Shown here: piece after piece, positions 645 to 55,162 of the stretch
Position numbering within the stretch: position 1 is the stretch's first letter
Layout of the letters: every line of letters starts with the position of its first letter
Assembly: GCA_019912885.1 (NCBI GenBank)
Contig: JAIOHV010000028.1
Coordinates: 1 to 55,162 of the forward strand
Length of the DNA stretch: 55,162 nt
DNA from: a bacterium
GTDB taxonomy: Bacteria > Lernaellota > Lernaellaia > JACKCT01
Reading direction: 5' to 3'
The notes under the pieces: model-generated
Seen by the model: only the letters and a program-made list of their open reading frames with translations
What the model was told of the DNA's origin: nothing
Databases searched by the model: none
Program-made: the position numbers and the translations under genes

Positions 645-2252
645 TCAGCAGCCGCAGCAGCCGTCGTCGTCATCGTCGTCATCGTCATCGTCATCGTCAT
701 CGTCGTCGGTCGCCGCGTCATCGTCATCCGCGTCATCGTCGTCGCTGTCGTCGTCGTCCGCGTCGTCGTCGTCCGTGTCGTCATCGTCCCCGTCCGGGCC
801 CTCGACCGTGATCGACACCGTATCCGGCGCCGAGCTGTCGATGCCGTCGGACACGACAAGCTCGAATTCGTACGTTCCGGACAGAAGCGCGGTGAAGCTC
901 GGCGCCGCGGCGGTCGCATCCGACAGAATCACCGTCTCCGGGCCGGACAGTTGATCCCAGATAAAGGTCAATGGATCGCTATCCGGATCGAACGAGCCGG
1001 TGCCGTCCAGATTGACCACGGTGCCGATCGGCACGGTGGCGTCGTCGCCCGCGTCCGCGACCGGCTCGGTGTTCGACGTGTTGAAGAACTTGAGGACCAG
1101 AAGATCCGCCCCGCCCGCGTAGCCGTTTCGCCCGTCGAAGAAGCCGACCGAAAGCAGCGCGCCCGCGCCGCTGTAGTCGTCCGCTTGCCACGTCTGCCCG
1201 CCGTCTTCCGTTTTGACGATGACGGCCTGGTTGCTGTAGGAGAAACCGACACCCCAGCCGACCTGCGGATTCAGCATCTGGAAATCCGCGATCAGGTAGA
1301 ACGAATTGGGATCGCCGATGCCCGGCACCGACGGCATCGTTGCCTCGTCCCACGTCGCGCCGCCATTGGTGGTGTAATTCAGCGAGAACGACGCCGAGAA
1401 CAGGCTCGACGCCAGGTACCAGCCCGTATTCGCATCCAGGAATTGAACCTTGCGGATACCGCGCGGCCCGTCGGAGGCGATGATGTTCCAGGACGCGCCG
1501 CCGTTATCCGTGCGGATGATCTCGCCGTTGACGCCTTGCACGTCCTCGAATTCGACGTATTCGTCATGCGTCTCGAACGATATGAAGAAGGTCTGATTAT
1601 CGACGACCGACACGCTTGTCGCCGTCGATTCGTCGGAAACCAGCGCCGGCGCCATCAGCGACCAGCTCGTGCCGCCATTGCCGGTGATCCAGAGGTTGTC
1701 GAACTCGCCCGCCGCCACGCCGAGGTTCGTATCCGCGAATCCCGCCGCCGTCAGCGTCGCGGATTGCGGCGCGCCCGTCAGCGCGATCGGCGTCCATTCG
1801 GTCGTGTAGTCGCCGCCGCCGGTCGCCGTGTTCGCGATGTACGGGTACGGAGCGTTGAGATCGAAAAGACTGCATCCCGTGTAGCCGTTGCCCCAGGAAC
1901 CGAAGGCCAGGCCGTTGTTCGCGTCGAAGAAATGCGTGTCGCGTACGTAAAGGTACGCGCGGCACCCGAAGTCCGGACCCGGGAACTGATTCACCTCGAA
2001 CGGATAGGTCAGCGTCACGCCGCTATCCACCGATTTCATCAGGAACTTCGCCGTGATGAGCGACGGCGCGATAAAGGCCTCGCCGACACCGACGAAGGTC
2101 GACTCCGACTGCGGATACATTTTCGTGATCGATCCGTAATCCGCGAACCCCGTCAGTTGGTGCTGCTCGGTCCAGAACGTCGCATGGGCGCCCGTTGCGA
2201 ACACGAGCGTCAGCGCGGCGCATATCGCCGCCGCCGTGAATTTCGACCGCAT
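645..2252 (-). CDS. Secreted BNR/Ycf48-like repeat protein with PKD domain and polyAsp-Cys C-terminal tail
   Basis: The 535-residue product starts at an ATG preceded by GAGGAGGG, which decides this start over a longer upstream frame. It has a signal peptide (about 1-24, cleavage after GAHA) with no lipobox. Residues ~30-380 hold repeated T.NGG.SW / DGGQTW units typical of BNR/sialidase or photosystem-II-assembly (Ycf48-like) propellers. A PKD-type domain follows (~410-500; ADAGDDATVPIG, LDGTGSFDPD, WDQLSG, YEFELVVSDG). The last ~50 residues are almost pure Asp broken by single T, A or S, ending in GCCGC. The tail is at the extreme C terminus with no transmembrane helix or Arg cluster, so it is not a MYXO-CTERM, GlyGly-CTERM or LPXTG signal. 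Likely surface-exposed or secreted; the propeller's ligand is unknown. Confidence 0.88.
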   Translation of the reverse strand: MRSKFTAAAICAALTLVFATGAHATFWTEQHQLTGFADYGSITKMYPQSESTFVGVGEAFIAPSLITAKFLMKSVDSGVTLTYPFEVNQFPGPDFGCRAYLYVRDTHFFDANNGLAFGSWGNGYTGCSLFDLNAPYPYIANTATGGGDYTTEWTPIALTGAPQSATLTAAGFADTNLGVAAGEFDNLWITGNGGTSWSLMAPALVSDESTATSVSVVDNQTFFISFETHDEYVEFEDVQGVNGEIIRTDNGGASWNIIASDGPRGIRKVQFLDANTGWYLASSLFSASFSLNYTTNGGATWDEATMPSVPGIGDPNSFYLIADFQMLNPQVGWGVGFSYSNQAVIVKTEDGGQTWQADDYSGAGALLSVGFFDGRNGYAGGADLLVLKFFNTSNTEPVADAGDDATVPIGTVVNLDGTGSFDPDSDPLTFIWDQLSGPETVILSDATAAAPSFTALLSGTYEFELVVSDGIDSSAPDTVSITVEGPDGDDDDTDDDDADDDDSDDDDADDDDAATDDDDDDDDDDDDDDDGCCGC

Positions 2253-2350
2253 GATTTCCCTCCTCATGGCCTGGTCAATGGAATCGCGAAAACCGCGCCC
2301 GCGCGCGGGCCGTGATCCTGGCTGTATTTTCGGCCAAGGTCGTAACACGG

Positions 2351-2554
2351 AAGTAAGAAATAGGAAATAGGAAATAGGAGATAGAAAACAGCGCATCGCA
2401 ACGTGCCGCGTGGGCGCGCCGGCGGCGATGGTGCCCGTCGCTTTCGTGAAGGCGCGCCGCATTTTCCGTCGACGATCGCTTCGTCGTCGCGGAGCCGACG
2501 CGATGGCGCCTCTTTCCTCTTTCCTATTTCCTATTTCCTACTTTCCGTTTCCTG
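2351..2554. repeat. Inverted pair of AAATAGG heptamer tracts
   Basis: Positions 2351-2390 carry tandem AAATAGG units on the plus strand; 2512-2554 carry the complementary TATTTCC units. About 120 bp of unrelated GC-rich sequence lies between. The arms could pair over 20 or more bases. The pair fills the gap between two minus-strand genes, and the right arm supplies the TAG stop of the sulfatase-fold gene ending at 2538. No gene was seen between the arms. Confidence 0.8.
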
Positions 2555-4178: not shown

Positions 4179-4268
4179 GGCCGGGAATGCTAGGGGTGCG
4201 CGGGACGTGTGTCAAAACCGCGCGCCTTGATCCGGCGAACGACGCGCGTTAGGAGGCGGCGCGGGCCG

Positions 4269-4592: not shown

Positions 4593-4752
4593 TTCCCAAG
4601 GCTAGCATAATCCGCCGTTTTCGGATACACGCTCCGTTCCCTGCGCGTCTCGTGCGCCCGGCCGCGCCCTTCGCGCCGCTCGGCCCCGCCTTGATTTCGC
4701 CCGCCCGCGCAACGTATGTTGGCCTCGTTTCCGACATGAAGACGCCGCCAAC

Positions 4753-7813: not shown

Positions 7814-7823
7814 GTCTTTCTTC

Positions 7824-12572: not shown

Positions 12573-13403
12573 TCAACACCCGCACGCGCCCCCGGAATCG
12601 GCGTTGTCATCGTCATCGTCAACGGGCGTACCGGTATCGTCGTCGTCGTTCGCGGAATCGTCGTTGGTCGCATCGTCGTCCAAATCATCGTCGCCGCACG
12701 AAGGACACACGATTTCCGTATCTAGTTGACACTCACCGTAGCTCGAATATCTGTATCCCTCGCAGTATGAAATACAGTTGCAGTAATCGTCATATTGCGC
12801 TTCGACGCCGACCCACTCTCCGTTCACTTCGTCGAAGACGCATCGTTCATCCACGAAATTTCCGCCACACATATCGTCTAAGCAATCCAAATATTGGTAC
12901 TCGACGTCGACATAGCATTCCCCAATTTCTAGTTCATAACATACATTCGGAGAATATTTACTCTTTCTATCACGAGAAGCGGCATTATCGCTGCCGCATT
13001 TTTTATTTTCGTTACATGATGGGCAGAAATCACGATGCTCGTTTTGACAATTAATACGGCAATTGCCCTTAATCTCAAAGTCACACACGGAATAGCAGGA
13101 ACAATAATCATCGTATTCCGGCGCGACACCCTCCCACGCCTGCGTATCCTCATTATAGATACACCGTTCATCGGCATAGTCGCCGCCACATTCGTCATCG
13201 ACGCAACCAATGAATTCATATTCACAATCGAGATAACATGGACCCAAAAGCACGCTATAACATTCTTCACCCGCTGCGCCTCCGCGCGCTTTTTGATCGT
13301 GCGCGTAAGAATTCCGCGAGTGTGTCACCGTAACCGCCAAAGCGCCGATCACCACAAACCCAACGGCGAACGCAAATAATGTATAGTGCGCACTACGAAT
13401 CAC
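12573..13403 (-). CDS. Secreted two-domain Cys-rich protein with Asp-rich tail ending GGACGC
   Basis: 276 residues from a GTG with GGAG ten bases upstream. A hydrophobic signal segment (~7-29) is not followed by a lipobox. Two internal copies of a ~90-residue Cys-rich domain follow (CYSVLLGPCYLDCEYEF... ending CPSC, and CYELEIGECYVDVEYQY... ending CPSC). Each shares the core C(V/L)DD.CGG.......C.....W.GV...YDDYC.C. The C-terminal ~45 residues are Asp-rich and end in GGACGC. It is a tandem paralogue of the gene at 13423-14253 (19 bp apart, same strand, same length). The DNA is AT-richer than the core genes. Function unknown; the Cys density suggests an extracellular disulfide-stabilised fold. 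Confidence 0.85.
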   Translation of the reverse strand: MIRSAHYTLFAFAVGFVVIGALAVTVTHSRNSYAHDQKARGGAAGEECYSVLLGPCYLDCEYEFIGCVDDECGGDYADERCIYNEDTQAWEGVAPEYDDYCSCYSVCDFEIKGNCRINCQNEHRDFCPSCNENKKCGSDNAASRDRKSKYSPNVCYELEIGECYVDVEYQYLDCLDDMCGGNFVDERCVFDEVNGEWVGVEAQYDDYCNCISYCEGYRYSSYGECQLDTEIVCPSCGDDDLDDDATNDDSANDDDDTGTPVDDDDDNADSGGACGC

Positions 13404-13422: not shown

Positions 13423-14253
13423 TCAGCCTCCGCACGCGCTTTTGCCGGAATCGTCGTCGTCATCGTCACCCGCCGCGCCCGTGTCATCGTCATCGGCGGC
13501 CGAATCGTCGTCGGTCGCGTCGTCGTCAAGATCGCCGTCGTTGCAGGAAGGGCAACGGATCTCTGTATCGGTATCGCACGCGAGAAAGCAATTGATGCGA
13601 TCAAGCTTACATGCCTCATTGGCGCAATCGCAATACTCGTCATATTGCGGCTCCGCCCCTTTCCAGCCGTGGCTATCATCGTCAAAGACGCACCACTCAA
13701 GGACATGATTGCCATCGCACTGCTCTTCTACGCAGTCGAACCAATCGTATTCACAACCGACGTAACATTCGCCGATTTCCAGATCTTGACACGAATACGG
13801 CGTATCTTTCTGCTTGACGGAGCGTACTTCCAAGTTCCCGTAGACCCCCTTTTTATTGTCGCACGTGGGGCAGGAGTCAATAAACTCCTCGCGGCAGTCC
13901 GCTTGGCAGGCTCCCTTGAGCTCAATGTCACAATGGTTAAAGCAAATGCAATACTCGCCGTATTCGGGTGCGACGCCTTGCCACGTTCCAGTTTCTTCAT
14001 TAAAGACACATTGCTCGCCTGAAAAATCACCTCCGCAGTCGTCATTTACACAAACAAAGAATTCGTACGCGCAGTTGATGTAGCAAATCCCCAAGAGACT
14101 ACTGTAGCAGACATCGCCCGGTTCGCCTTCGCGAGATTTTTGCTGCTGCTCAACTGAATTCGCACCCGTAAAAGAATATATACTAAACATCGTAATTGCA
14201 AGGAGCATAACATAAAACGACGGTCGCGCGTGCCTAGTACTTGTCAAACTCAT
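13423..14253 (-). CDS. Secreted two-domain Cys-rich protein with Asp-rich tail ending KSACGG (paralogue)
   Basis: 276 residues; ATG preceded by GGGAGGAA. The signal segment (~12-31) lacks a lipobox. Two Cys-rich domains match those of the downstream neighbour: CYSSLLGICYINCAYEF.CVNDDCGGDF...W.GVAPEYGEYC.C (ending CPTC) and CQDLEIGECYVGCEYDWFDC...W.GAEPQYDEYCDC (ending CPSC). The acidic tail (DLDDDATDDDSAADDDDTG...) ends in SGKSACGG. First gene of the pair, probably co-transcribed with 12573-13403. The four domain copies imply an internal duplication followed by gene duplication. Confidence 0.85.
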   Translation of the reverse strand: MSLTSTRHARPSFYVMLLAITMFSIYSFTGANSVEQQQKSREGEPGDVCYSSLLGICYINCAYEFFVCVNDDCGGDFSGEQCVFNEETGTWQGVAPEYGEYCICFNHCDIELKGACQADCREEFIDSCPTCDNKKGVYGNLEVRSVKQKDTPYSCQDLEIGECYVGCEYDWFDCVEEQCDGNHVLEWCVFDDDSHGWKGAEPQYDEYCDCANEACKLDRINCFLACDTDTEIRCPSCNDGDLDDDATDDDSAADDDDTGAAGDDDDDDSGKSACGG

Positions 14254-17835: not shown

Positions 17836-19947
17836 TCAGGGATCGAGGCCAAGCCAGAAATCGCCCGACCGCACGAGCTGTCCGTCGCCGTCGTGGCCCG
17901 CGACGCGGAAGGGGCGGCGCTCGCGATCGCCGGGGTTGATCAGAACCTCGTGCAGCGTTTGCAACTCGTCCGTTCCGGGCGTCGTGTGCGTGTAGATGGG
18001 AAGCCGCTCGCCCCATTCGACAAACGACGACGCGCCGCTCGTCGACATCCAGGAGATCGTGTACGTGCCGTCGCCGTGGTCGGTAGCCTCGATATCGTAG
18101 AGCGTCGTCGGCTCCCACGCCTCGGAGTCCACCTGTTCGGGGAAGCCCTGGCGCAGGTCGACGACAAAGTTTCGGATGCGGTTCGGGTTGCCCGGCGAAA
18201 TCCCGGCGCCCCAGCGCGCCTCGATGGAATCCGCGAGGTCGAGAAGCGTATCGGCGTTCCACTCCAGGATGTCGTCGTCCTCCGGGTGGCCGTACTGCTT
18301 GTGCAGGAAGCGGAAGACGGTGTCGTCGAGCAAGCGCCAGACGTACGCGATGTCGCGGTGCAGTTCGAGCTTGTCGTGCAGCTCGTCGTAATCGTCCGAA
18401 TCGGCGAACGCATCCTCGATCGATTCGAGCGCGGCCAGGTTGTCCTCCGCCAGCTCGATCGCCTCGGTCGATTCCTGCCACAGATCGACGAGCGTCTGCA
18501 CCGTGGGGACGATGAGCGCATCGAACACCGGACGCCAGACGGCGTCGTAGAGCGTCGTGTTGCGCCCGAGCAGCATCGCCGGGAAGCGCGCGGAGTCGGT
18601 GACGTCCGAGCCTTTTTCGAGCGTCCACATGCCGAGCGAGTAATACATCTTGCGCATGGCGAAGTGCGAATTGCGGAAGATCGCCTTCAGCGTGCCGGAC
18701 GCGGGGTCGCTCGCGGCGATGCCGTAGCGTTCGTCGAACCAGGCGCGATACACGTCGTCCGGCGTCGCGGCCGCGTCGTCCATGTAGGCTGCGTACGCAA
18801 ACAGGTTCACCTCGTTCGCGTCGCCGAGCGCGTGGTTGCCGCCGCGTTCGATGCGCGCCGCCGCGCCGAGCGCGCCGATGGCGACGTCGTATTGCCAGCG
18901 CCAGCGGATGTAATCGACCTGGCCGTTCAGGATGCGCGAGGCGCCCCAATATTCGTTGCCGAGATCCATCTCGATGATCTGGTGCCGGTGGCCGACGTTG
19001 CCGATCAAAAGGTTGTCCGGATAATACGGCTGCCAGTCCTGCGGCACGTCCTTGCTCATCACCGCGAGGCGATGATCGCCGTAGGTCGAAAGCGACTCAC
19101 GCAGCCACTCGATCTCCGCGCGCTGGTGCATGAACGTACGCACGCGCAACTCCTTGCCGAACTCGTCCATCACCACGCCGCCGACCTCGTCGTAGATCTG
19201 CTTAAGGCGCGCGGGCGGATCGGAATTGATGAGATCGAGCAGCGGATTGCCGGTGTCCGGCTGATCCACGCACCACTGGCAAAAACACACGGCATACCAC
19301 GGCTCCACGTCGGAGCTGCCGAACATCAGGATGACGCCGTCGATCTCGGGCACGGCGGAAAGCGCGTCGCGATACGCCTTGCGCCTCCTCTCCCAGAGCT
19401 TGTCGTCGGGATCGAGACACAACACATAAAACTCGCGCGCGAACTCGTGCGCCCACACCCAGACGCTAAGCCCGAGCGCGTGCGCCTCATCGGCGATGTC
19501 CTTGATCTCGACGGCCTTCGCGGGGCTCTCGTTGATCTCGTCGATGTCCATGATGATGTCGTGCGAGAGCTGCACGTTGTCCATGCCGTATTCGACGGCG
19601 GCGGAAAGCGCCTCCGAGATGTGCTCGCGATTGTCGTCCAGGAGGATGAAGCCGTAGGTCGGATCGCCAAGCGGCGTGGTGTCGTCATCGCCGGTGTCGT
19701 CGTCGGCATCGTCGTCATCGAAAGTGTCGTCGTCGTCGGCGTCGTCATCATCGTCGATGTCGTCGTCGGCGTCGTCGTCGTCGGTGTCGTCGTCATCGAT
19801 GGCGGTGTCGTCGTCGGGCGAGGCATCATCGTCGTCGTCATCGTCGCCGCACGAACACCCGGCGGCGGCGACCAACGCAAGGACGCCAAGCCATACGAGC
19901 AGATGTAGGAGCGCCGCGCGCCGCGCCGCGGATCGAAGCGGATTCAT
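17836..19947 (-). CDS. PolyAsp lipoprotein with a glycoside-hydrolase-like domain
   Basis: 703 residues from the ATG preceded by GGGAGAGGG. Lipobox ...LVAAAGC (Cys31), then SCG and ~50 residues of Asp in short runs separated by T, A, I, S or G. The large domain starts near residue 85 (TYGFILLDDNREHISEALSA), with TIM-barrel-like features: VEYGMDNVQLS, ALGLSVWVWAHE, IDGVILMFGSSDVEPWY, RTFMHQRAEIEWL, and Trp/Arg-rich QVDYIRWRWQYDVAIGAL. It recalls alpha-glucuronidase (GH67)-like or related carbohydrate-active folds, but I cannot assign an activity. A beta-sandwich-like C-terminal domain (~620-703) follows. The acidic linker would hold the enzyme away from the membrane. Confidence 0.82.
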   Translation of the reverse strand: MNPLRSAARRAALLHLLVWLGVLALVAAAGCSCGDDDDDDDASPDDDTAIDDDDTDDDDADDDIDDDDDADDDDTFDDDDADDDTGDDDTTPLGDPTYGFILLDDNREHISEALSAAVEYGMDNVQLSHDIIMDIDEINESPAKAVEIKDIADEAHALGLSVWVWAHEFAREFYVLCLDPDDKLWERRRKAYRDALSAVPEIDGVILMFGSSDVEPWYAVCFCQWCVDQPDTGNPLLDLINSDPPARLKQIYDEVGGVVMDEFGKELRVRTFMHQRAEIEWLRESLSTYGDHRLAVMSKDVPQDWQPYYPDNLLIGNVGHRHQIIEMDLGNEYWGASRILNGQVDYIRWRWQYDVAIGALGAAARIERGGNHALGDANEVNLFAYAAYMDDAAATPDDVYRAWFDERYGIAASDPASGTLKAIFRNSHFAMRKMYYSLGMWTLEKGSDVTDSARFPAMLLGRNTTLYDAVWRPVFDALIVPTVQTLVDLWQESTEAIELAEDNLAALESIEDAFADSDDYDELHDKLELHRDIAYVWRLLDDTVFRFLHKQYGHPEDDDILEWNADTLLDLADSIEARWGAGISPGNPNRIRNFVVDLRQGFPEQVDSEAWEPTTLYDIEATDHGDGTYTISWMSTSGASSFVEWGERLPIYTHTTPGTDELQTLHEVLINPGDRERRPFRVAGHDGDGQLVRSGDFWLGLDP

Positions 19948-20315: not shown

Positions 20316-20828
20316 TTAGCACATTTCCGTATCGCACCAGATCGACAACACGACCTCAATATCGTCATTCTCCGCATCGCACTTCAGATCTTTATGGATG
20401 ATTTTGCCGCCGCAGCATCGAGACCATGGATCCCCATTAGGTGGCTCGTAAACCCAATTAAAGTCCATTCGATACGACCACGATAAACCATCAAATTCGT
20501 AGTTCACCATACCCAACTCATCACTATATCCACTCCAGAACAATATATTCTCTTTGGCGTCCCCTATTTGGACAAGCACCTTCTCCAGAGGACCGGGTTC
20601 AATATTGTATTTATCGACCGCTTGTTCGTTTAACACTCGAATTACGCCAATCACTATCCCGTAATTGCAATCCTCCCATTCATCGTCATCGACATTCTCA
20701 CCATCTGCATCGCCCTCATCGCCTTCACCTTCGTCATCGTCTTTATCACCGTTTTCTTTTGCATCAATACAGCCGCCGCAGACAAACAAGATTAGCATAG
20801 AACTGGCTATTACCATTCGCCAACACAT
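20316..20828 (-). CDS. Lipoprotein with acidic Asp/Glu linker
   Basis: 170 residues. The ATG at 20828 lies eight bases after AAGGAGG and two bases after the upstream gene's TGA, so it is probably translationally coupled. Lipobox FVCGGC (Cys20), then an acidic Asp/Glu/Gly linker (~25-52) and a compact domain (GIVIGVIRVLNEQAVDKYN ... VLVQIGDAKENILFWSGYSDELGMVNYEFDG) resembling an extracellular beta-sandwich with C-terminal Cys pairs (SRCCGGK, CDTEMC). AT-richer than core genes. Last gene of a three-gene operon with the beta-helix protein. Function unknown. Confidence 0.75.
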   Translation of the reverse strand: MCWRMVIASSMLILFVCGGCIDAKENGDKDDDEGEGDEGDADGENVDDDEWEDCNYGIVIGVIRVLNEQAVDKYNIEPGPLEKVLVQIGDAKENILFWSGYSDELGMVNYEFDGLSWSYRMDFNWVYEPPNGDPWSRCCGGKIIHKDLKCDAENDDIEVVLSIWCDTEMC

Positions 20829-27121: not shown

Positions 27122-28699
27122 GTGAGAAACGCAGCCGATCCGAAATCCGCGTTGCGGGCGAATTCGCGGACGCCGAAAGAACGTCAAAAATCGGTGCGCG
27201 AAAGTCGGTGCTTGTCCCATTTTCCCCAAGTTCTATTGGGATTTTTTATAGTTTATCGCATGTTGGCCGTCGCCGCAAACGCCGAATTCCTTTTACCAAA
27301 CAATCCGAATTGGGATTTTGACGGAGGATATGATTGTGCTTTCTTATATGGAGGGTTCGACCTGAATGGGGACGATTTCGAAGATCTCGTCATTGATTGT
27401 GGCGATAGATTGCTAATTTTTTTTGGGTCAACTGAAGGTTTAACCAGTGATTATAATTATGACATATTTCTACAATCCGCGCATGGCAGCTACGCTATTA
27501 TTGGGAGCGATTTAAATAACGACGGGTATGATGATTTAGTAGTGCCCAATCCAGGCTGGAATCTATTGCATGACAACAATGGAGCAGCTGGCCGCGTCGT
27601 TATATTGTATGGAGATTCGCTTCAAATTGAATCAGCAACGATTCTCACGGGCGATGCCAGTCGTCGGAATTATGGCCAAGTCGTCGCCGACAATATTGAC
27701 GTTAACGGAGACGGTTTTGGCGATTTAATCATTCAGTATCAGTCTCTCGAAGGCACGCGCACCGACGCAGAAAAAGTCGTCGTCCAAGCTTCTTATCATG
27801 GCACCAATGCGGGCGTTTCCAACACACCTTCTTGGATATATTCGTACGATGATTGTGATGCACTATGGGCGCAGATTACTCCCTTGGGCGACTTCAACAA
27901 CGATGGATACGACGACATAGCAATTACTTGTGGACTTGCCAATCCTGCAGAGATTTTATTTTTCCTAGGATCGCAATACGGCTTACCTCAATCACCAAAT
28001 GTTATTATAAATAGTGACAATCAATATTTCCATGATTGGCTATCCGTGTTCCACCTCGGCGACGTTAATGGCGATGGCGTTGATGACCTAGCGAGCACCG
28101 ACTCAGATATTATTTATATATTTTACGGGAATAATTTGAGATTCGACGACCTCTCATACTCCAAAACCTTAAATCTATTCTCCGATGACGGCTCTCCAGT
28201 TGGACCTGCCACATTATTTTACAGCAATCGAAGTAATTCCACGAATTTTAATGGCGATATATTTGACGACTTAATAGTAACTTGGCTTAATGATAAAGAT
28301 CTGGTGCCGTATCTCGGATACATCACCGGCTCTGCGTCCGGCATTCAAAATGATATTTCTTGGTCCGCTCTTATTAGTGATCCGCAGCAACTTGCCATTT
28401 CGAATGCAGCCAGTGGCGACGTTAACGGAGACGGATCCGATGACTTGCACTATGTCGGTATTTACTACTCGGAGTTTATACCGGGTGAAATATACTTTTG
28501 GGTATTCGGCTATGAGTCAGGAAACGTTTCTAATTCTACCACAACTACGACTACTTCCACAACCGTCCAGTCGAATACGACAACGACGCAACCAACAGAT
28601 GGCAACAGCGACAACGGGGCCGATCGATTATTTTACGGCGAAGGTAAAAACGAAGATGATGACGAAGAATCCAATATAGGATGCGGATGTTCATTCTAG
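27122..28699 (+). CDS. Secreted FG-GAP (integrin-like) repeat protein with acidic Cys tail
   Basis: 525 residues from GTG 27122 (GGGAGGGG upstream). The N-terminal ~35 residues are basic, followed by a hydrophobic stretch (VLLGFFIVYRMLAVAANA) as signal segment. At least six FG-GAP-type calcium-binding loops follow: DLNGDDFEDLVI, DLNNDGYDDLVV, DVNGDGFGDLII, DFNNDGYDDIAI, DVNGDGVDDLAS, DVNGDGSDDLHY. A Thr/Ser-rich linker (~480-500) leads to an acidic end, EDDDEESN, and finishes IGCGCSF, a variant of the polyAsp-Cys tails elsewhere in the window. AT-rich compared with its neighbours, suggesting transfer. Probably a beta-propeller surface or secreted protein. Confidence 0.85.
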   Translation: MRNAADPKSALRANSRTPKERQKSVRESRCLSHFPQVLLGFFIVYRMLAVAANAEFLLPNNPNWDFDGGYDCAFLYGGFDLNGDDFEDLVIDCGDRLLIFFGSTEGLTSDYNYDIFLQSAHGSYAIIGSDLNNDGYDDLVVPNPGWNLLHDNNGAAGRVVILYGDSLQIESATILTGDASRRNYGQVVADNIDVNGDGFGDLIIQYQSLEGTRTDAEKVVVQASYHGTNAGVSNTPSWIYSYDDCDALWAQITPLGDFNNDGYDDIAITCGLANPAEILFFLGSQYGLPQSPNVIINSDNQYFHDWLSVFHLGDVNGDGVDDLASTDSDIIYIFYGNNLRFDDLSYSKTLNLFSDDGSPVGPATLFYSNRSNSTNFNGDIFDDLIVTWLNDKDLVPYLGYITGSASGIQNDISWSALISDPQQLAISNAASGDVNGDGSDDLHYVGIYYSEFIPGEIYFWVFGYESGNVSNSTTTTTTSTTVQSNTTTTQPTDGNSDNGADRLFYGEGKNEDDDEESNIGCGCSF

Positions 28700-41497: not shown

Positions 41498-42673
41498 TCA
41501 GCAATTGAAAAACCCGCCGTTGCCATCGTCGTCGTCATCGTCGTCCGCGGAATCGTTGTTGCTCGAATCGTCGTCGCCGGAAGCCGCGGCATCGTCGTCA
41601 TCGTCATAGTCGGACATTTCATCGTCGTCCGCGGAATCGTCATCGGGCGTATCGTCGTCGGATGCGTCGTCGTCAACCGCGTCGTCGTCTGGGTCGCGAG
41701 GCAAGGAAAAATTACCGGTCGACCACGGTCCAAGGTACGACCATGCGGTAAATTCAAATTTTCGCCCCGGAAGACTGTCGGTCGTCGCGTAGAACAAAAA
41801 CGTCTGCTTCTCGCCTTCGCGAACGTCACCGCCGGTCGAGGAGTCGTAGGGCACGTATTCCCAGCGGATCGCGGGCGGATCGTAAGACAGGGAATTGATC
41901 CAGTCGCCTTCGCCATGCAACGAAGGGGGATTAATCGCGTCGCCCGGCTGAAGAAGCCACCGGTCCGGCGCCAATAAGTTGACCGCGTCGATCCAATTGC
42001 CGTTTCCCATCGGGCTCGTGTTTTCGACTTCGAATTCAAACAAATAACGTGTGTCTGGCTTGATTTGCGGCGGCGACGCGATCGCGGCCGCAACCGTAAA
42101 CCCTTCCGGGGGCAGCCAATCCGGCCAGTCGCCAACGCACTCGTAGTAATCGCATGGTAATTCGAAAAACGAGGTCATCGACGCTTCAAGGGTGCACGCG
42201 AAGTAGTTGAGAAAATCGTCGGGATTACAATGGGCGGAAGCTTCTCCGTAATTCGTTTCGTAGTTCACCATGGCGAAATCACGACAAGTCATATCGTCAA
42301 CGTCAAAAATCGTTTCAATGTTTGGATACAAGGGCGCGCCGACACTGAGGAGAAACATGTCGAACGCGACGCGAGTGCAGTCTGTCCGTGCCAAATCGGT
42401 CTCACACCAGGCATAAAACGCTAAAAACGACGTTAAAGCCCAAGTCGCTCTTTCGGCGTCCGGTATGGGGACAAACGCCCAGTATCGCCCTGCACAAGAC
42501 AGACCTGGATTCGCTTTCGCGTCGGCAGGCGTACTAACGTTCTTTTCGGCGAATACGTCCGAGAGTCTGGAAATTTCCGATATTTGGGGGAACCGCTCAA
42601 TCGACGCAATAACTGGAACGGATATCAAGGACGAAAAAGCGACGAGAAGCCGTAGCACCAAGTAGCGACTCAT
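41498..42673 (-). CDS. Exported protein with polyAsp tail ending GGFFNC
   Basis: 391 residues; the ATG at 42673 follows GAGGGTGG, two codons after an alternative GTG. Signal peptide (~1-23, VPVIAS) without lipobox. Residues ~30-190 contain many Cys (SCAGRYWAF, WCETDLARTDC, DMTCRDF, HCNPDD, PCDYYECVG). A beta-rich domain with family-like motifs (TRYLFEFEVENTSPMGNGNW, REGEKQTFLFYATTD) covers ~190-325. The C-terminal ~65 residues are Asp in runs of three to eight and end GNGGFFNC. The whole gene lies between inverted copies of a short repeat (41437 and 42795), unlike its neighbours. Function unknown. Confidence 0.82.
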   Translation of the reverse strand: MSRYLVLRLLVAFSSLISVPVIASIERFPQISEISRLSDVFAEKNVSTPADAKANPGLSCAGRYWAFVPIPDAERATWALTSFLAFYAWCETDLARTDCTRVAFDMFLLSVGAPLYPNIETIFDVDDMTCRDFAMVNYETNYGEASAHCNPDDFLNYFACTLEASMTSFFELPCDYYECVGDWPDWLPPEGFTVAAAIASPPQIKPDTRYLFEFEVENTSPMGNGNWIDAVNLLAPDRWLLQPGDAINPPSLHGEGDWINSLSYDPPAIRWEYVPYDSSTGGDVREGEKQTFLFYATTDSLPGRKFEFTAWSYLGPWSTGNFSLPRDPDDDAVDDDASDDDTPDDDSADDDEMSDYDDDDDAAASGDDDSSNNDSADDDDDDDGNGGFFNC

Positions 42674-42831: not shown

Positions 42832-43620
42832 TCAGCAGAGATTCATGCAGTCGATCGCCGTGTCGATGTCGCCCGGGCAGTAGGTGTCGGCGCAGATTTC
42901 GTAGCACGACCACGGATGGCCGGTTTTGCCGCAGACCTTCATCATTTCGGCCTCGAAGATCTGGTAGTCCGTGCCGTTGATGACGAACCCGATGCCGCAG
43001 TCGTAAATCTTGTCGACGGAAACCGTGCAGCCGCCCGTGGGCTCCACGTCGAGGCAGGCATTGAAGCAATCGACCTCGCAGGTCGTCTGCGCGCAGTCGT
43101 CAAAACAGCTCCACGTGGGGCTCGTCGTTTTGGCGAATTGCGCCAGCCAGGTTTCGAGCTCCTCGCACCAGTCCTGGTGATAAGCCGCGTCCTCGCCGCC
43201 GAATCCCACCAGGCAGCCGTTCACCATGTCGTCGGCGATTTCCGCGCACGTGGCGGGGGAGAGATCGTCGTCCGACACGTCGTCATCCGTCGCGTCGTCG
43301 TCGGAGGCGTCGTCATCGGCCCCATCGTCGTCCACGGCATCGTCATCCAGCGCGTCGTCATCATCGACGGCGTCGTCATCGTCCGCGCCGTCGTCGTCAT
43401 CGCCCAGGTCGTCGTCATCGTCATCGTCGTCCGCGCCGTCATCGTCGTCGTCATCGTCGTCGTCGTCGCCGCCGATGCCGCCGGGACCGGGAAACTCGTC
43501 GTCGATCTCGTCGTCCTCGTCGTCGTCGTCCCCGCCCCCACCGACGCAGGCGATCAACGCGCTCGATGCAACGAACGCGATCGAAATCATCAGCGTCAAC
43601 CACACGAAACGCGCGCTCAT
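42832..43620 (-). CDS. PolyAsp lipoprotein with Cys-rich C-terminal domain
   Basis: 262 residues; ATG preceded by GGGGGAT. Lipobox ASSALIAC (Cys25), then VGGGG and a ~95-residue segment that is mostly Asp in runs of up to ten, interrupted by Gly/Ala/Leu/Ser. The mature domain (~130-262) has over ten Cys (CAEIADDMVNGC, DWCEELETWL, SCFDDCAQTTCEVDCFNAC, YDCGIGF, SCYEICADTYC, DCMNLC), probably a disulfide-rich extracellular fold. Function unknown. A decayed copy of its 5' end lies upstream at 44516-44685. Confidence 0.85.
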   Translation of the reverse strand: MSARFVWLTLMISIAFVASSALIACVGGGGDDDDEDDEIDDEFPGPGGIGGDDDDDDDDDDGADDDDDDDDLGDDDDGADDDDAVDDDDALDDDAVDDDGADDDASDDDATDDDVSDDDLSPATCAEIADDMVNGCLVGFGGEDAAYHQDWCEELETWLAQFAKTTSPTWSCFDDCAQTTCEVDCFNACLDVEPTGGCTVSVDKIYDCGIGFVINGTDYQIFEAEMMKVCGKTGHPWSCYEICADTYCPGDIDTAIDCMNLC

Positions 43621-43753: not shown

Positions 43754-44362
43754 TTAATCCGGATCCCAGCACCATTCGTCGATGCAGTCTTCGACCGTAT
43801 CGCAGGAGTCTCCATTCAAGGCGCAACCCGCGAGGCACTCCATGAACAAATCCTGCTGCCAGCACCCGTCCTCGGCTTGGTCGCGGTCAAACGGCCAACT
43901 CGGCCAGGGCGACTCCCAGCCGCAATCGTCAAAAAGGATCTCCATGGCCGTGTCGCACGGAATATCCTCACCGACTCCCGCATATTCCAGGATGCAGTCG
44001 TTCACGCACCATCCCAGGTCGCCGCAATTATCGGATGCCCACGCGCAATCGACCATGCAAAGGATCATCTCCTCACCGGATTCGCACAACTCGACCCACT
44101 GCTCGGGAGTCACTTCGTGCGCGCCGGTAATCAAGGCGACGGTCTGGCATTCGACGACGATCTCCCAAACGCCGTCCCAGCAATAACCCGATCCGCCGGG
44201 CTCGGGCTGGTCCTCCGGTAGCGCGGCCGCGGCGTCGTCATTGTCATCCACCGCCGTTTCGTCACGCGACACGCCGTGGTCGCCGCCGTCGCACCCAATC
44301 GAAACGGCATGCGCGAATGCGAAAATCAGGGCGAAAACGGACAGCCTGGAAAGAACCTGCAT
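43754..44362 (-). CDS. Cys-rich lipoprotein with short acidic linker
   Basis: 202 residues; ATG preceded by GGGAG. Signal peptide ends SIGC (Cys24), a slightly unusual lipobox, followed directly by Asp at +2, which in enterobacteria favours inner-membrane retention. A short acidic segment (DETAVDDNDDAAAALPEDQPE) leads to a Cys-rich domain (CWDGVWEIVVECQT, CMVDCAWASDNCGDLGWCVNDCILE, DDCGWES, CLAGCALNGDSCDTVEDCIDEWCWDPD). The pattern resembles the Cys domain of the downstream lipoprotein (42832-43620) in size and spacing, so the two are probably paralogous. Confidence 0.8.
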   Translation of the reverse strand: MQVLSRLSVFALIFAFAHAVSIGCDGGDHGVSRDETAVDDNDDAAAALPEDQPEPGGSGYCWDGVWEIVVECQTVALITGAHEVTPEQWVELCESGEEMILCMVDCAWASDNCGDLGWCVNDCILEYAGVGEDIPCDTAMEILFDDCGWESPWPSWPFDRDQAEDGCWQQDLFMECLAGCALNGDSCDTVEDCIDEWCWDPD

Positions 44363-46988: not shown

Positions 46989-48635
46989 ATGATGCGACTT
47001 GCGACCGCCACGCCGTGGCTTTTGGTGCTCATGCTTTTCGTCGCGGCGGCGCTGCCCGCGTGTTCGTGTGGCGACGATGACGACGATGACGACGATGACG
47101 CCGCGCCGGACGACGACACGTCGTTTGACGACGACGACGCCGACGACGACACAAGCGTCGATGACGACACGGACGATGACGCCGACGACGACACGTCCGA
47201 TGACGACGCGGATGACGACACGTCCGACGACGATACGTTCGATGACGATACCGGCGATGACGATACGGGCGACGACGATTTCGCCGACGATTTCGTCGCG
47301 GACTGGCCGCAGTCGAACATCGAGCCGGACACCTACAACGAGGCGCCGGCCGCGGGCCCCATGCGCGAAAAGGCGATCGACTACGACGACTTCCACCTCG
47401 CGAACCATCAGCCCTGGTACGGCAGCACCGTCGGCACGACGAGCTACAGCGACGACACGCACACGACGATCACCGGCCACGGCGATTTCGGCGACAGCTC
47501 GATCTGGTCGGGCACGTACTTGTCGGGCCAGGCGTTCCGCTACCACGTCACCGGCGACGCGCAGGCAAAAACGAATGCGCTCAAGACCGCGTCCTCGCTG
47601 TCGCGCCATCTGCACGTCACGGGACGCACGGGCTTCATTGCGCGCTACGTGGCGCCGCAGGATCCGCTGATCTACCCGAGCGACGCGTGGTGCGAAGGCC
47701 GCGACCACTGCCACCACATCGAAACCGGCGAATACGCGGGCGACTGGTGGGAAGGCAACACGAGCCGCGACCAATACACCGGCTGGTTCTTCGGCATGGT
47801 GACCGCGTACGACCTCATCGACGATCAGGCGATGCGCGACCAGATCGCCGACGACGTGGCCGAGGTGCTCGACGAATTGATCGCCGAGGACTGGTGGATC
47901 ACCGACGTGGACGGCGTCCCCACGACGGCCGGGCCGAACGTGCTGCCGTCGCAGCAGCTCACGTGGTCGCTCATCGGCTATCACATCACGGGCGAGGAGC
48001 GCTTCGCGGATGTCGTGCGTCACTGGGTCGAGGACTCGCGCCGCGGGTTCCTGCGCCTGATGAATATCTCGTTCATGAACCGCTACGCGCAGTTCTACGG
48101 CAACAACCTCGGCCACCAGAACATGTATTCGCTGCTGCGCCTGGGGAAGGTGTACCTGTCGCCGGACGACTACGCGAACATTCTCGACATGTTCGAGACG
48201 CAGACACACACGTTCAACCGCCTGGCGCACAATGCGTTTTTCAACACGATCTTCATGAGCCAGGGCGACTACAATCCGGCGGACACCGAATATCAGGATC
48301 AGCTCGAGGAGGACCTCGGCGATTTCCGCGATGCGCCGAACACCGTGTATTACGTCGATCCGACCGACCTGCCGATCGATCCGGTCTCCGTGCTGCTCGA
48401 CAACCTGCAAACGCAGTATCCGTTCCTCGAGGAACTTTTCGGCAGCGTCGATCCACAGTCGATCGACGCGCACCCGGTGCTCGAGCAGTGCACCACGGAC
48501 TTCCTGTGGCAGCGCAGCCCGTACCGGAACGAGCCTTGCGGATCGGACAACCCGCTCGTCACGCGGCCGGGCGTCGATTACATCACGGCCTACTGGATGG
48601 CGAGCTACCACAAGTTCCTGACCAAGGATCAATAG
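46989..48635 (+). CDS. PolyAsp lipoprotein with alpha/alpha-barrel-like domain
   Basis: 548 residues (an ATG ATG pair, first at 46989). Lipobox LPAC at Cys25, then SCG and ~75 residues dominated by Asp in three- to nine-residue runs separated by T, S, A, F or G. The mature domain (~105-548) is Trp/Tyr-rich and helical: DYDDFHLANHQPWYGSTVG, GTYLSGQAFRYHVTGDAQAKTNAL, WWEGNTSRDQYTGWFFGMVTAYDLI, NNLGHQNMYSLLRLGKVYLS. This looks like a (alpha/alpha)6 toroid as in many polysaccharide lyases and hydrolases. The enzymatic class is not determined. A hairpin terminator follows (48666-48696). Confidence 0.82.
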   Translation: MMRLATATPWLLVLMLFVAAALPACSCGDDDDDDDDDAAPDDDTSFDDDDADDDTSVDDDTDDDADDDTSDDDADDDTSDDDTFDDDTGDDDTGDDDFADDFVADWPQSNIEPDTYNEAPAAGPMREKAIDYDDFHLANHQPWYGSTVGTTSYSDDTHTTITGHGDFGDSSIWSGTYLSGQAFRYHVTGDAQAKTNALKTASSLSRHLHVTGRTGFIARYVAPQDPLIYPSDAWCEGRDHCHHIETGEYAGDWWEGNTSRDQYTGWFFGMVTAYDLIDDQAMRDQIADDVAEVLDELIAEDWWITDVDGVPTTAGPNVLPSQQLTWSLIGYHITGEERFADVVRHWVEDSRRGFLRLMNISFMNRYAQFYGNNLGHQNMYSLLRLGKVYLSPDDYANILDMFETQTHTFNRLAHNAFFNTIFMSQGDYNPADTEYQDQLEEDLGDFRDAPNTVYYVDPTDLPIDPVSVLLDNLQTQYPFLEELFGSVDPQSIDAHPVLEQCTTDFLWQRSPYRNEPCGSDNPLVTRPGVDYITAYWMASYHKFLTKDQ

Positions 48636-50479: not shown

Positions 50480-50480
50480 T

Positions 50481-51377: not shown

Positions 51378-51520
51378 GCGCGCCTCCCTCTTCGCGTTGC
51401 TACGTTTCGCGCCTTGCCTTGTGTTGCCGACCGGCATCATGACGCTCACCCCGATTCGATCGTACCACCATCCGCGCACGCCGGATCGAAAATCTTGCGG
51501 GACTTGACGCGCGTCAAGCG

Positions 51521-52804
51521 TCATGGCGCCTCGAACATCTCCGGCGCGAGGAACACGCTGGGGTCAAACCCGGTATACGCCAGGCCGAACATCTTCATAT
51601 AAACGTGGATCGCCATGTCGAGCGGCAGCACGAAGATCGGCCAGCCGAGCACGATCGCGATGAACGTGAACAGCCACGCCAGGGAGCGCCCGCCGCGTCC
51701 TTCGGGAAGCGGAATTCGGTCGCGGCCGCCGGTGCGCCACCAGCGGAAGAGGGTCAAAAGCGCGGCGTGATACGCGCCGAACAGCGCGTAGTGCAGCCCG
51801 AATCCGTGCCACACGCCGACGAGCACCATCGCCGCGAACGTGTTGACGGTCGCGCGGCGCGGCCCCTTTCGGTTGCCGCCCATCGGGATGTACACGTAGT
51901 CCTGCACCCAGCCCGTCAGCGACATGTGCCAGCGCCGCCAGAACGCGGCGATGTTCGTCGCGAGAATCGGCCAGGCGAAATTCTCGCGGATGCGATAACC
52001 GAACACGAGCGCAAGCCCGATGGCGATGTCGCTGTAGCCCGCGAAGTTGAAGTAGATGTGGAAGTAATACGCGATCGTCGAGATCCACATCTGGTCGACG
52101 CTCGTCTGGATCAGGATCAATGGCCCGTCCGGCGAGGTAAGCGAGGTCAGCGGCTTGGCGATCCGTCCGAAAAACTCGCCGATCATGAGCGCCTTCACCG
52201 CGCCGGACGCGATGCGCATCAGTCCCTCGGCGAGGTTGGGCGAGGTCATCGGCGGCGCGGTGTCCTGTTCGTCGAACGGCCGCGGCCGCTCGATCGGGCC
52301 GGAGATCAGTGTCGGCCAGAAGGCGGCATAGTGCAGAAGCCTCGCGAACGGGAGCGGCGTCATCCGCCCCGCGCGCACCTCGAAGACGTAGGCGAGCACG
52401 CGGAACGTCAGGTAGCTGATGCCAAGCGGTGCGAGAAAGCGGATGTCCACGTGCGGGAACATCGCATCGGCCAGGCGCACGAACGTCGGCGGCAGGATCG
52501 CCATGATCGCCTTGAAGAAAACAAGCGGCGCGACGATCGCGAGGATCGCGTTGCGCAACAGCGTGCGCGTTTCGCCGGGCGGGCGGCCGGAGAGGCGCCT
52601 GGCGAAATGTTGCCCCGCCGCGACGACGAAAAACGTGACGAGCGCGAACGCGAAGCCGATCGGCAGGATCGGCCCCTGCGAGAAGATCGCGAAGATCGAG
52701 ACGAATAGCAGGATCTTCGGCCGAAAGCGCGCGGGCACAAGAAAACGCAGCGCGAGATAAAGGACGATGCCCCAGAAAATGACGACAAGGCTCGTCAGCT
52801 TCAT
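51521..52804 (-). CDS. MBOAT-family O-acyltransferase (AlgI-like)
   Basis: 427 residues with about ten hydrophobic segments. AlgI/MBOAT signatures: WPTLISGPIERP, the FWRRWHMSLTGWVQDYVYIPMGGNRKG loop and the catalytic His333 in MVLVGVWHGFGLHYALFG. MBOAT proteins move acetyl groups across the membrane to polysaccharide or peptidoglycan acetyltransferases. The ATG overlaps the upstream gene's TGA (ATGA), so it is coupled to the SGNH gene, as in algI/algJ- or patA/patB-type pairs. Confidence 0.92.
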   Translation of the reverse strand: MKLTSLVVIFWGIVLYLALRFLVPARFRPKILLFVSIFAIFSQGPILPIGFAFALVTFFVVAAGQHFARRLSGRPPGETRTLLRNAILAIVAPLVFFKAIMAILPPTFVRLADAMFPHVDIRFLAPLGISYLTFRVLAYVFEVRAGRMTPLPFARLLHYAAFWPTLISGPIERPRPFDEQDTAPPMTSPNLAEGLMRIASGAVKALMIGEFFGRIAKPLTSLTSPDGPLILIQTSVDQMWISTIAYYFHIYFNFAGYSDIAIGLALVFGYRIRENFAWPILATNIAAFWRRWHMSLTGWVQDYVYIPMGGNRKGPRRATVNTFAAMVLVGVWHGFGLHYALFGAYHAALLTLFRWWRTGGRDRIPLPEGRGGRSLAWLFTFIAIVLGWPIFVLPLDMAIHVYMKMFGLAYTGFDPSVFLAPEMFEAP

Positions 52805-54072
52805 GGCGTCTTGCGCTCCGCCAGAAGCTCGGCGATGGGCGGCGCGAGCGCCTCGGCAAGCATCGCGTGTCCGCGCCGCGTCAGGTGATCCAGGTCCGTG
52901 AAATGCGCGGGCGGAATCGCGTGCGACAGATCGACGACGCGCGCGCCCTCATCCTTCGCGGCGCGCGCGACGACCTCGCGGAAGTTGTCGAAACTCTGCC
53001 ACGTGAAGTAGCGCTGCTCGTCGTTCAACGCGCGATTGATCGGAGTGAGATAGACAAGGATCGGCACGCCCGCGTCGTGCACCTGGGCGATCGTCCGCCG
53101 CAAAAGGCGCAGGTACACGTTGTAGCGGTTCAGGTGCACCTGTTCGTAGATCTCCCGCTCGCGCTCGTGGTGAAACTCGATCATCTCCTTCCAGATGTTC
53201 GTGCGGTCGCGGCGCGCGGGATCCAGGTTGCGCAGCACATTGCGGCCCACGTCGCCCTCTAGGTTCACGCCGATGCGCCGCGCCCACGCGTCCTGGAGCT
53301 GGTCAAACGGCGAGTCCATCGAGCCGGTGACGGAATTCCAGAAAACGCTGCGCAGGCGGTAGAGCGCCCAGACGTTTTCGAGGTTGCCGCGCAGGCGGAT
53401 GCGCAGCCATTCGGTCGCGTCGATCTCGTAGTCCTTGCGCAAATCGCCGAGACTCGGATCCCCGCGCACGTGGAACGCCAATTCCCGGTAACGCAACGGA
53501 TTGCCGACCGCGATGTGCGACGAAAAGAGTTTGTAGTGCGTTGACAGGACGATCGCATCCGCGCCGGATTTCAGCGCCGCGCGGGCGATGGCGTATTGAT
53601 CGCCGAAGTTCGCGCCCATCGTCGCGGTGTTGAAGGTGTGCGCCTGGATGCCCTGTTCGCGAAGCATCGCCTCGACGAGCACCGGCGCGGTTTCCTCGGG
53701 CGTCGTGTTCGTCACGCCCTGCAACACGGACGCGCCCAGAAACGCGACGGACGGATCGACGCGTTTCATGCGCGCGAGCATGTAGGAAAGCGCGTTGGTC
53801 GATTGATATTCGTTGCGAAGCGCAAGGCCGGGTCGGCTTTCGAGCGAGAGCATCGCACGGTCGAGCACAAGCAGCAGCACCGCGGCGACAAGGAGTGCCA
53901 CCCACGGCCGGACCATCCGCGCCTGACGCAATAGCCACGAGTCCGGCCCCGGCGCCGCCTGCCCCGCCGCGCCCGGCGCGCCGGGATCGATCGCCGTCGC
54001 CGCGCCTTCGCCGGAGGCGATGTTCATGCCGGCTGCGTCCGGGCGGCCGTTGTCGTCGCTTGATTCGGGCAT
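52801..54072 (-). CDS. Membrane-anchored SGNH-like acetyltransferase (AlgX/AlgJ-like)
   Basis: 423 residues from ATG 54072 with AAGAGAT upstream. One N-terminal transmembrane helix (~55-72), then a soluble domain with FLGASVLQGV (nucleophile-type Ser115) and, near the C terminus, DLDHLTRRGH giving the DxxH-type Asp393/His396 pair. This Ser...DxxH arrangement marks AlgJ/AlgX-type SGNH-fold acetyltransferases. It would accept acetyl groups from the coupled MBOAT protein and place them on an exported polymer. The polymer is unknown; no synthase gene is in the window. Confidence 0.82.
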   Translation of the reverse strand: MPESSDDNGRPDAAGMNIASGEGAATAIDPGAPGAAGQAAPGPDSWLLRQARMVRPWVALLVAAVLLLVLDRAMLSLESRPGLALRNEYQSTNALSYMLARMKRVDPSVAFLGASVLQGVTNTTPEETAPVLVEAMLREQGIQAHTFNTATMGANFGDQYAIARAALKSGADAIVLSTHYKLFSSHIAVGNPLRYRELAFHVRGDPSLGDLRKDYEIDATEWLRIRLRGNLENVWALYRLRSVFWNSVTGSMDSPFDQLQDAWARRIGVNLEGDVGRNVLRNLDPARRDRTNIWKEMIEFHHEREREIYEQVHLNRYNVYLRLLRRTIAQVHDAGVPILVYLTPINRALNDEQRYFTWQSFDNFREVVARAAKDEGARVVDLSHAIPPAHFTDLDHLTRRGHAMLAEALAPPIAELLAERKTP

Positions 54073-54201
54073 CGCGATATCTCTTGAGGAAACGCGCGTT
54101 AACTTGGCGCGCCGCGCGGTTTTTGGCAACGCGAGGCTGGGAGCCTTGCCCCCAACCGCGCCCCGCGCTTACGATTCGCCGAACCTTTGGGAGATACCAA
54201 T

Positions 54202-54957
54202 ATGCGTTCTGTCTATTCGATTCTGATGCTCGCGGCGGTGGCCGCGATTTGCCTGTCCGCGGCGCCGGCGTTTGCCGCGACCATCGCGACCGAAGAATTC
54301 ACGAGCGGCATCCCGGCGGACTGGGTCGCCGCGGACGCCCTTGCCGGCGGCGTGATCTGGCGCGACGACGATCCCCGCTCCCGCGCGGGCACGGCCGGCT
54401 GGGCGCAGATCGCCGGCGGTTTTGTCATCGCCGACGCGGGCTTTTTCTTAGACGTTATCGCCAACGGCACCGGCGACACGACGCTGACCACGGCCGCCGT
54501 CGATTGCACGAACTTCGGCGAGGTGCAGCTTGTGTTCGCAAGTTCGTTCCTGTCCAAGGACGCGGCGGACGCGGCCGAGGTGCTCGTCGGCAACGAGACC
54601 GACGGCTTCACCGCGCTCACCCCGACGATCAACGACGACGGCACGGAGCAGGTCGTCATTGCGCCGCTCGGCGACTGGGCCGACACGAACCCCGACGTGC
54701 AGGTGCGTTTCCACTACACGAGCGGCTTTGTCAGCGACGGCTACTGGGCGATCGACGCGGTGCGTTTCACGGGCATCGACGTGACGGGCGACGACGACAC
54801 TGCGGACGACGATGACGCGGCGGACGACGACATGGGCGGCGACGACGACGCGGCGGACGATGACGACGATGATGACGATGACGATGATGACGACGACGAC
54901 GCGGCCACGGGCGATGACGACGACGATGACGATGACGGGGGTTGCTGCGGCGGCTGA
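54202..54957 (+). CDS. Secreted beta-sandwich protein with polyAsp tail ending GGCCGG
   Basis: 251 residues; ATG with GGGAGAT upstream. Signal peptide ~1-25 (cleavage after APAFA), no lipobox. The ~165-residue domain (TIATEEFTSGIPADWVAADALAGG..., ADTNPDVQVRFHYTSGFVSDGYWAIDAVRF) resembles a jelly-roll choice-of-anchor or MAM-like domain that often precedes anchoring signals in secreted proteins. The last ~55 residues are Asp-rich in runs up to fifteen or more and end GGCCGG. Upstream of another polyAsp lipoprotein gene (34-bp gap), so both ends of the system occur side by side. Confidence 0.85.
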   Translation: MRSVYSILMLAAVAAICLSAAPAFAATIATEEFTSGIPADWVAADALAGGVIWRDDDPRSRAGTAGWAQIAGGFVIADAGFFLDVIANGTGDTTLTTAAVDCTNFGEVQLVFASSFLSKDAADAAEVLVGNETDGFTALTPTINDDGTEQVVIAPLGDWADTNPDVQVRFHYTSGFVSDGYWAIDAVRFTGIDVTGDDDTADDDDAADDDMGGDDDAADDDDDDDDDDDDDDDAATGDDDDDDDDGGCCGG

Positions 54958-54991
54958 GGGGACTTTACGCGATCATTCCGAGGCTTCGGCG

Positions 54992-55162
54992 ATGAAAATC
55001 ATCCCGGCGTGTCTTGCGGCCTTGACGGTGTTGACCGCTTTCTTCGCGGCCGGCGCTTGCGGCGGCGGTGACGATGATTCGTCTGCCGCCGGCGACGATG
55101 CCGACGACGACATCGATGACGATAGCTCCGCCGCCGACGACGATGACGACGAAGATGACGAT
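54992..55162 (+). CDS. PolyAsp lipoprotein, N-terminal part (cut by window edge)
   Basis: 57 codons to the window end from an ATG with GAGG eight bases upstream. Signal peptide with lipobox AAGAC (Cys23) followed by GGG and Asp runs broken by Ser, Ala and Ile. The frame is open at the edge. It lies 34 bp after the polyAsp-tail gene and may form an operon with it. Confidence 0.75.
   Translation, partial: MKIIPACLAALTVLTAFFAAGACGGGDDDSSAAGDDADDDIDDDSSAADDDDDEDDD

Follow-up and report, generated by a model that had tools for sequence, protein, structure and literature searches.

Exported proteins encoded in a 55,162-nucleotide stretch of DNA from a bacterium of the candidate phylum Lernaellota, alias Podoxiota (FEN-1099 in GTDB; PMC11382960), end in an Asp-rich run followed by a short Gly/Cys motif, D(n)-G-C-[CG]-G-C-COOH. 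We propose, with moderate confidence, that this motif is a C-terminal sorting or anchoring tag that has no transmembrane (TM) helix, is probably lipidated on Cys, and is functionally equivalent to both the MYXO-CTERM signal and the lipobox. The whole stretch, called here the window, makes up contig C28 in a 4.8-Mb genome of 230 contigs (G000). This genome was analyzed with the others of its family and class (seven in total, G000 to G006), 53 unrelated genomes that share only the domain with it, and 95 relatives of a Kofleriaceae genome.

A preliminary description of the window had listed twelve exported proteins with an acidic segment next to Cys, and all twelve open reading frames were found, with the coordinates and termini that it gave. 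Six of them carry the tag at their C terminus:

645..2252, − strand: C-tagged exported protein with YCF48/sortilin-like repeats, a PKD domain and an Asp tail; ends DDDDDGCCGC-COOH (a homologue, L063:3981, has the end GGSCGSCS)
12573..13403, − strand: C-tagged exported Cys-rich repeat protein with a GTG start; ends DSGGACGC
13423..14253, − strand: C-tagged exported Cys-rich protein, paralogue of its neighbor 12573..13403; ends SGKSACGG
27122..28699, + strand: C-tagged protein with FG-GAP repeats; its tail, the variant DDDEESNIGCGCSF, extends two residues beyond GCGC
41498..42673, − strand: C-tagged exported protein, single-Cys variant; ends DDGNGGFFNC
54202..54957, + strand: C-tagged exported protein; ends DDDDGGCCGG (weak, sub-cut-off choice-of-anchor J similarity)

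The other six are N-type lipoproteins:

17836..19947, − strand: mature start CSCGDDDDDDD
20316..20828, − strand: mixed D/E/G acidic segment past the lipobox Cys
42832..43620, − strand: CVGGGGDDDD; also a C-terminal Cys (CMNLC), with no acidic C-terminal run
43754..44362, − strand: weak acidic segment CDGGDHGVSRDETAVDDND
46989..48635, + strand: CSCGDDDDD
54992..55162, + strand: start only (contig end); CGGGDDDSS

The acidic run expected after the lipobox Cys is clear in four of these (17836-19947, 42832-43620, 46989-48635 and 54992-edge), but mixed in 20316-20828 and weak in 43754-44362.

Genes were called on approximately 1.3 Mb of G000 using a simple codon-usage caller. A Cys was present within the last 6 residues of 60 of the 73 proteins with an acidic segment in their last 38 residues, versus 54 of the 856 others (p=2e-49). 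The pattern D4-x(0-4)-CGC-stop gave 84 raw matches in G000 (overlaps within one run counted apart), which represent about 45 genes, and 0 matches when reversed as a control. Enrichment of the acidic/Cys end, the test named beforehand as able to overturn the proposal, was thus found genome-wide. We estimate that G000 has 45 to 75 tagged genes, nearly all of which encode exported proteins. The sampled DNA was partly fetched around pattern matches, which inflates absolute tag densities; contigs picked regardless of the pattern had a lower density, with about 5 tagged proteins in 248. Conservation of the acidic/Cys ends, another of the tests proposed, was also observed, as orthologues at 30 to 63% identity keep the tag, including proteins of 1,300 residues.

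Among 93 tagged proteins from three genomes, Cys occupies position -3 in 86, Gly position -2 in 84, and Cys position -1 in 79. Gly and then the Asp run precede CGC upstream, giving the consensus D(n)-G(0-4)-C-[CG]-G-C-stop. Twelve or more acidic residues were counted in the last 60 positions of 91 of the 93 proteins ending in CGx, versus 167 of 1279 others. The position of the motif is strict: all 47 occurrences of acid-CxC in G000 and 26 of the 27 in G001 lie at most 2 residues from the C terminus, and the reading frame stops 0 to 2 residues past CGC, the last residue directly after the motif being C, G, S, N, K or R. Variants have a single Cys (GGGLFSC, GNGGFFNC) or no last Cys (CCGG, CGN, CGK, CGS); the motif is CGx-COOH rather than one invariant terminal Cys. 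At L019:3174-8264, four tandem paralogues end in GGGLFSC or GGGVFSC, single-Cys variants comparable to the end of 41498..42673, and an adjoining fifth protein ends in GGCCGS.

The acidic residues of the tag are nearly exclusively Asp (973 Asp versus 21 Glu), which would suit a brush in which the Asp run and CxC bind Ca, Zn, Cu or other surface cations; the C-terminal Cys-Cys/Sec end of SaoC has been discussed as a possible metal ligand (PMC13188914). We regard such a role as very improbable. It does not account for a motif that is strictly terminal, that hardly ever occurs together with a lipobox, and that is exchanged with the lipobox and MYXO-CTERM as described below; moreover, acidic tails on lipoproteins have no Cys.

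The Asp runs are of low complexity and encoded by GAC/GAT repeats. One might thus suspect an artefact of low-complexity Asp repeats, of mobile DNA repeats, or of stop-codon read-through hiding a membrane helix, but we find this hardly credible. The 22 GCCGC ends are encoded by 13 distinct DNA sequences, a synonymous codon diversity that rules out a DNA-level repeat artefact. An in-frame helix was found 3′ of the stop codon in 5 of 79 tagged genes versus 44 of 1273 others (p=0.2); this background frequency, with no excess, rules out read-through into a hidden downstream helix. Moreover, tags end with all three stop codons and are conserved across genera.

Signal peptides and lipoboxes were called by heuristic rules rather than by SignalP, the lipobox being defined as a [LVI][ASTVI][GAS]C motif that closes the signal peptide. 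A signal-like N terminus was found in 53 of the 60 proteins of G000 that combine an acidic C terminus with Cys, and in 87 of the 96 proteins ending in CGx; the remaining tagged proteins probably reflect mostly wrong start calls. In G000, none of 79 strict-lipobox lipoproteins was tagged, versus 53 of 217 other exported proteins (p=2e-8), and in G001 the tag occurred in 1 of 39 lipoproteins versus 26 of 62 other exported proteins (p=5e-6). These proportions agree with the expectation that tagged proteins have signal peptides and rarely a lipobox. Five exported proteins in the G000 sample have an acidic C terminus but no Cys, and all five bear a lipobox.

The statement that no protein has both ends holds within the window, but elsewhere in the genomes L147:6632-8671, L203:8737 and perhaps L203:11294 combine a lipobox-like Cys with a Cys tail. 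The first is a reprolysin-like metallopeptidase whose linker is long and Thr-rich and whose end is SCGCGC; located one gene upstream of the LgtB gene discussed below, it is possibly doubly anchored. The other two are neighboring paralogues of G001 (ends GGCCGC and GSGCSV, respectively), which seemingly have both a lipobox and a Cys tail and are homologous to the FG-GAP protein L068:9231. Similarly, the description of an acidic run at exactly one end does not hold for a small family (L011:9464, L025:2273, L027) in which one Asp run directly follows the signal peptidase I site and a second precedes the C-terminal GCGC, Cys being present only at the C terminus.

Homologous proteins exchange the tag for other anchors. 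The window lipoprotein 46989-48635 and its paralogue L018:1908-3578, which ends in DDDDGCGC, are 34% identical over 425 residues (E=1e-60), and both lipobox and tagged forms of this family are found in G000 and again in G001. The tagged member from FR_14 (L044) is closer in pairwise identity to the lipobox members. Its placement in the tree is weakly supported (65) because the sequences, from metagenome-assembled genomes (MAGs), are partial and frameshifted, and a swap at the level of orthologues is therefore suggestive only. In a second family, the tagged subtilase L091:11807-13468, which ends in DDDDDDGGSCGC-stop, is 45.6% identical over 419 residues (E=1e-96) to the subtilase L145:4694-6424, which ends in EDGGCGC-RAASGEPPLSAVFVLGLLTIGVGFARRVQRRE, a true MYXO-CTERM. 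Lastly, L082:12699 (GCCGC-stop) is approximately 30% identical to the L101 lipoproteins. The pairs with a lipobox in one homologue and the tag in the other support the earlier idea that the tag stands in for the lipobox anchor.

The resemblance extends to the lipoproteins themselves. In three genomes, an acidic run follows the lipobox Cys in 62 of 145 lipoproteins, whose mature start reads C-[GS]-C-G-D-D-D-D, with Cys at +3 in 27/62 and Gly at +4 in 29/62. A second Cys within +5 was found in 28 of the 62 acidic lipoproteins versus 6 of the 83 others (p=1e-7). The mirror image that had been claimed is thus literal, as these lipoproteins start with C-x-C-G-D(n) and the tag reads D-D-D-D-G-C-G-C. 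In contrast to lipobox lipoproteins, the substrates of Lgt and LspA, the tag is C-terminal and has neither a lipobox nor a signal peptidase II site; as a substrate of Lgt it is a candidate only. In Bacteroidota, acidic residues next to the lipidated Cys, K-(D/E)2 or Q-A-(D/E)2, steer lipoproteins to surface exposure (Lauber et al. 2016, PMC5080379). That export signal, which resembles the tag in sequence, is N-terminal and short and belongs to another phylum.

Two or three Cys residues are present in 73 of 82 tags, several tagged proteins are Cys-rich, and CxC is a known redox motif. The CGC pair might therefore form disulfide or thioether bonds that cross-link exported proteins with one another or with a Cys-rich surface layer; the Asp run would then be a spacer, and no lipid transferase would be required. 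We consider this rather unlikely. The swap partners of the tag are lipid anchors, namely the lipobox and MYXO-CTERM, whose Cys has been proposed to be lipidated (PMC11980579). In addition, the single-Cys variants GGGLFSC and GNGGFFNC cannot pair internally, no partner layer protein was identified, and the reported habitats of the phylum, bioreactors and sludge, suggest mostly anoxic conditions.

MYXO-CTERM (TIGR03901), the signal associated with the myxosortase MrtX in Myxococcota, has the generic motif GCGC. Its acyltransferase is still to be identified, Lgt being the leading candidate, and in Myxococcus xanthus its cargo consists of cell-surface adhesins and hydrolases (Guo, Haft and Wall 2025, PMC11980579). 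Each of the seven genomes of the class has one or more MYXO-CTERM matches that exceed the curated cut-off (e.g., ...DEDEEEEGCGCQTAKNGPTSATLIFVLLGMLFLLVARRRA). A single genome can hold the GCGC core both with a helix and Arg tail and without them, as the exchange of the tag for MYXO-CTERM between homologues demonstrates. TIGR03901 did not match any tagged protein of the window, and the match above cut-off in G000 is a different, helix-bearing protein. The tag and MYXO-CTERM have in common a short Cys signature motif of the GCGC type, an N-terminal signal peptide, a disordered linker upstream, hydrolase- or adhesin-like cargo, and the presence of a type II secretion system (T2SS); a homologous subtilase exists in either form. 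In contrast, the tag is followed by neither a helix nor an Arg-rich C terminus, does not score with TIGR03901, and can dispense with a co-occurring CPBP protease. Because of these four differences, the tag is not a member of MYXO-CTERM. By analogy, it probably works like the processed form of MYXO-CTERM. The preliminary description was right that a helix and a basic cluster are absent, but it missed that the GCGC core is the MYXO-CTERM signature and that genuine MYXO-CTERM proteins exist in the same genomes. Since a tagged protein has a genuine MYXO-CTERM protein as a close homologue, the tag is better called a TM-less counterpart of MYXO-CTERM than unrelated to known signals. The part of the initial proposal that holds is that exported non-lipoproteins carry a conserved signal dedicated to their C terminus.

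The GlyGly-CTERM/rhombosortase, PEP-CTERM/exosortase and LPXTG/sortase systems also place C-terminal tags on many unrelated exported proteins, but all three signals are tripartite (motif, helix and basic cluster), whereas the tag consists of the motif only. SaoC (NF040734), a Cys-Cys-COOH (seleno)protein, likewise has a Cys pair at its very C terminus; unlike the tag, it is a single protein family and not a transferable element. Among the window proteins, NF040734 gave a sub-threshold match to an unrelated region of one protein (10.7 versus 80 bits, E=0.33). No Pfam or NCBIfam model covers the tag, and no report of a helix-less C-terminal Cys tag was found in the literature searched.

The tag is restricted to a narrow lineage. 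Raw matches to D4-x(0-4)-CGC-stop numbered 64 in G001, 69 in G002, 43 in G004, 55 in G005 and 5 in G003, versus 0 in the 53 unrelated genomes and two stray matches among the 95 Kofleriaceae-related genomes. G006 gave 0 pattern matches, but it does not lack the tag: it has looser Asp spacers with NGGCGC, GGSCGC, GGCGR, GSACGM and NTGCGC ends, and thus the tag is present in all seven genomes of the class. In a scan of approximately 85,000 named species for DDDGCGC-stop, real in-frame exported cases were essentially limited to the MAG JAOSJX "FR-FEN-1099-1", whose tagged proteins reach 62% identity with tagged proteins from the family of the window. It is these matches that place the window, by inference, in the phylum FEN-1099. 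The sole other convincing match was a Kofleriaceae protein (L046). This exported-looking protein, the only one of its kind in that MAG (L046:4027-4050), ends in DFEDDDDGCGC, and its genome has 22 MYXO-CTERM matches; it is possibly an independent origin of the helix-less tag.

Which machinery handles the tag was approached through co-occurring genes. The CPBP family (PF02517; the Rce1-like myxosortase family) had no match in G001, which is 99% complete, has 64 tag matches and also encodes MYXO-CTERM-like proteins. A CPBP myxosortase as the responsible enzyme is thus not supported, and its absence from such a tag-rich genome shows that the tag is independent of a CPBP protease. This independence fits a motif that needs no cleavage.

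In contrast, each of the seven class genomes has three Lgt genes, versus 1 of the 53 unrelated genomes. Lgt loci were noted at L146:3053-5063, L147:9260-10090 and L103:6178-7245; in the notation used here, the paralogues are LgtA, LgtB and LgtC. Each aligns to the structure of E. coli Lgt (5AZB). Two tandem lspA genes precede LgtA; LgtB and LgtC are phylum-restricted sister groups whose HR-x-x-GC motif contains an inserted residue, and in G000 LgtB is one gene away from the tagged metallopeptidase of L147. The LgtB/LgtC type was not seen among 20 sampled Kofleriaceae-related loci, several of them incompletely translated, and we therefore set aside the idea that it is common to Myxococcota. On this weak correlation, LgtB and LgtC are candidate tag enzymes. 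The Kofleriaceae genome G060 weakens the case for several Lgt genes as a general sign of MYXO-CTERM.

A T2SS secretin match was found in 7/7 class genomes, although split between contigs in G000. Type II secretion is likely how the tagged proteins are exported. The tagged cargo comprises subtilases, a reprolysin-like metallopeptidase, a metallophosphatase, an N-acetylglucosaminidase, a phospholipase C, and FG-GAP, Kelch and PKD proteins; the tagged protein L085:11660 has a choice-of-anchor J domain above cut-off. With so many secreted hydrolases, the tail could be a secretion cue, for instance for the T2SS, that releases proteins to the medium instead of anchoring them, and MYXO-CTERM cargo without its tag is indeed released by the T2SS (PMC11980579). 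This is decidedly unlikely, since an export cue would not require Cys to be conserved at -3/-1, the partners in the swaps are anchors, and lipobox exclusion better fits alternative anchors than a separate export cue.

In the anchoring model that we favor, the proteins would be exported by Sec via an ordinary signal peptide, which signal peptidase I would then cut. The terminal Cys of CGC would be modified, most likely with a lipid, and would hold the protein at the surface of the cell. The flexible Asp run would act as a spacer and possibly as a cue for surface export. The tag would thus do at the C terminus what C-x-C-G-D(n) does at the N terminus of lipoproteins, and would correspond to the MYXO-CTERM GCGC motif minus the TM helix and Arg tail, and hence minus the cleaving protease. 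Several points weigh against this model. The modification of the Cys is a deduction from sequence. After signal-peptide cleavage, a tagged protein has no membrane segment, which leaves the access of a membrane enzyme to the terminal Cys unexplained. The number of Cys in the motif ranges from one to three, and no one Cys position is invariant, as the variants GGGLFSC and CCGG show. Both ends occur together in two or three proteins, so that exclusion is a strong tendency and not a rule. Tagged and untagged homologues sometimes coexist, and anchoring may thus be optional. Finally, MYXO-CTERM does not generally go with extra Lgt genes, as G060 has 22 matches and apparently one Lgt gene.

A membrane helix and a basic tail are part of every known bacterial C-terminal sorting signal considered, whereas this phylum uses a bare Cys motif on dozens of proteins. 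As the motif is evolutionarily interchangeable with the lipobox and MYXO-CTERM, it separates the modification step of MYXO-CTERM sorting from the cleavage step and is a naturally minimal substrate in which to look for the modification. More tentatively, the bare -D(n)GCGC-COOH end could be a categorically new class of anchor that has neither helix nor basic tail, is not cleaved, and receives its lipid after export from a dedicated C-terminal acyltransferase, LgtB or LgtC. If so, surface proteins would be lipidated at the end opposite to that of ordinary lipoproteins, and the system could point to the missing acyltransferase of the MYXO-CTERM pathway. For a phylum known mainly from metagenomes, the tag provides a one-line rule that predicts a large share of the surface proteome.

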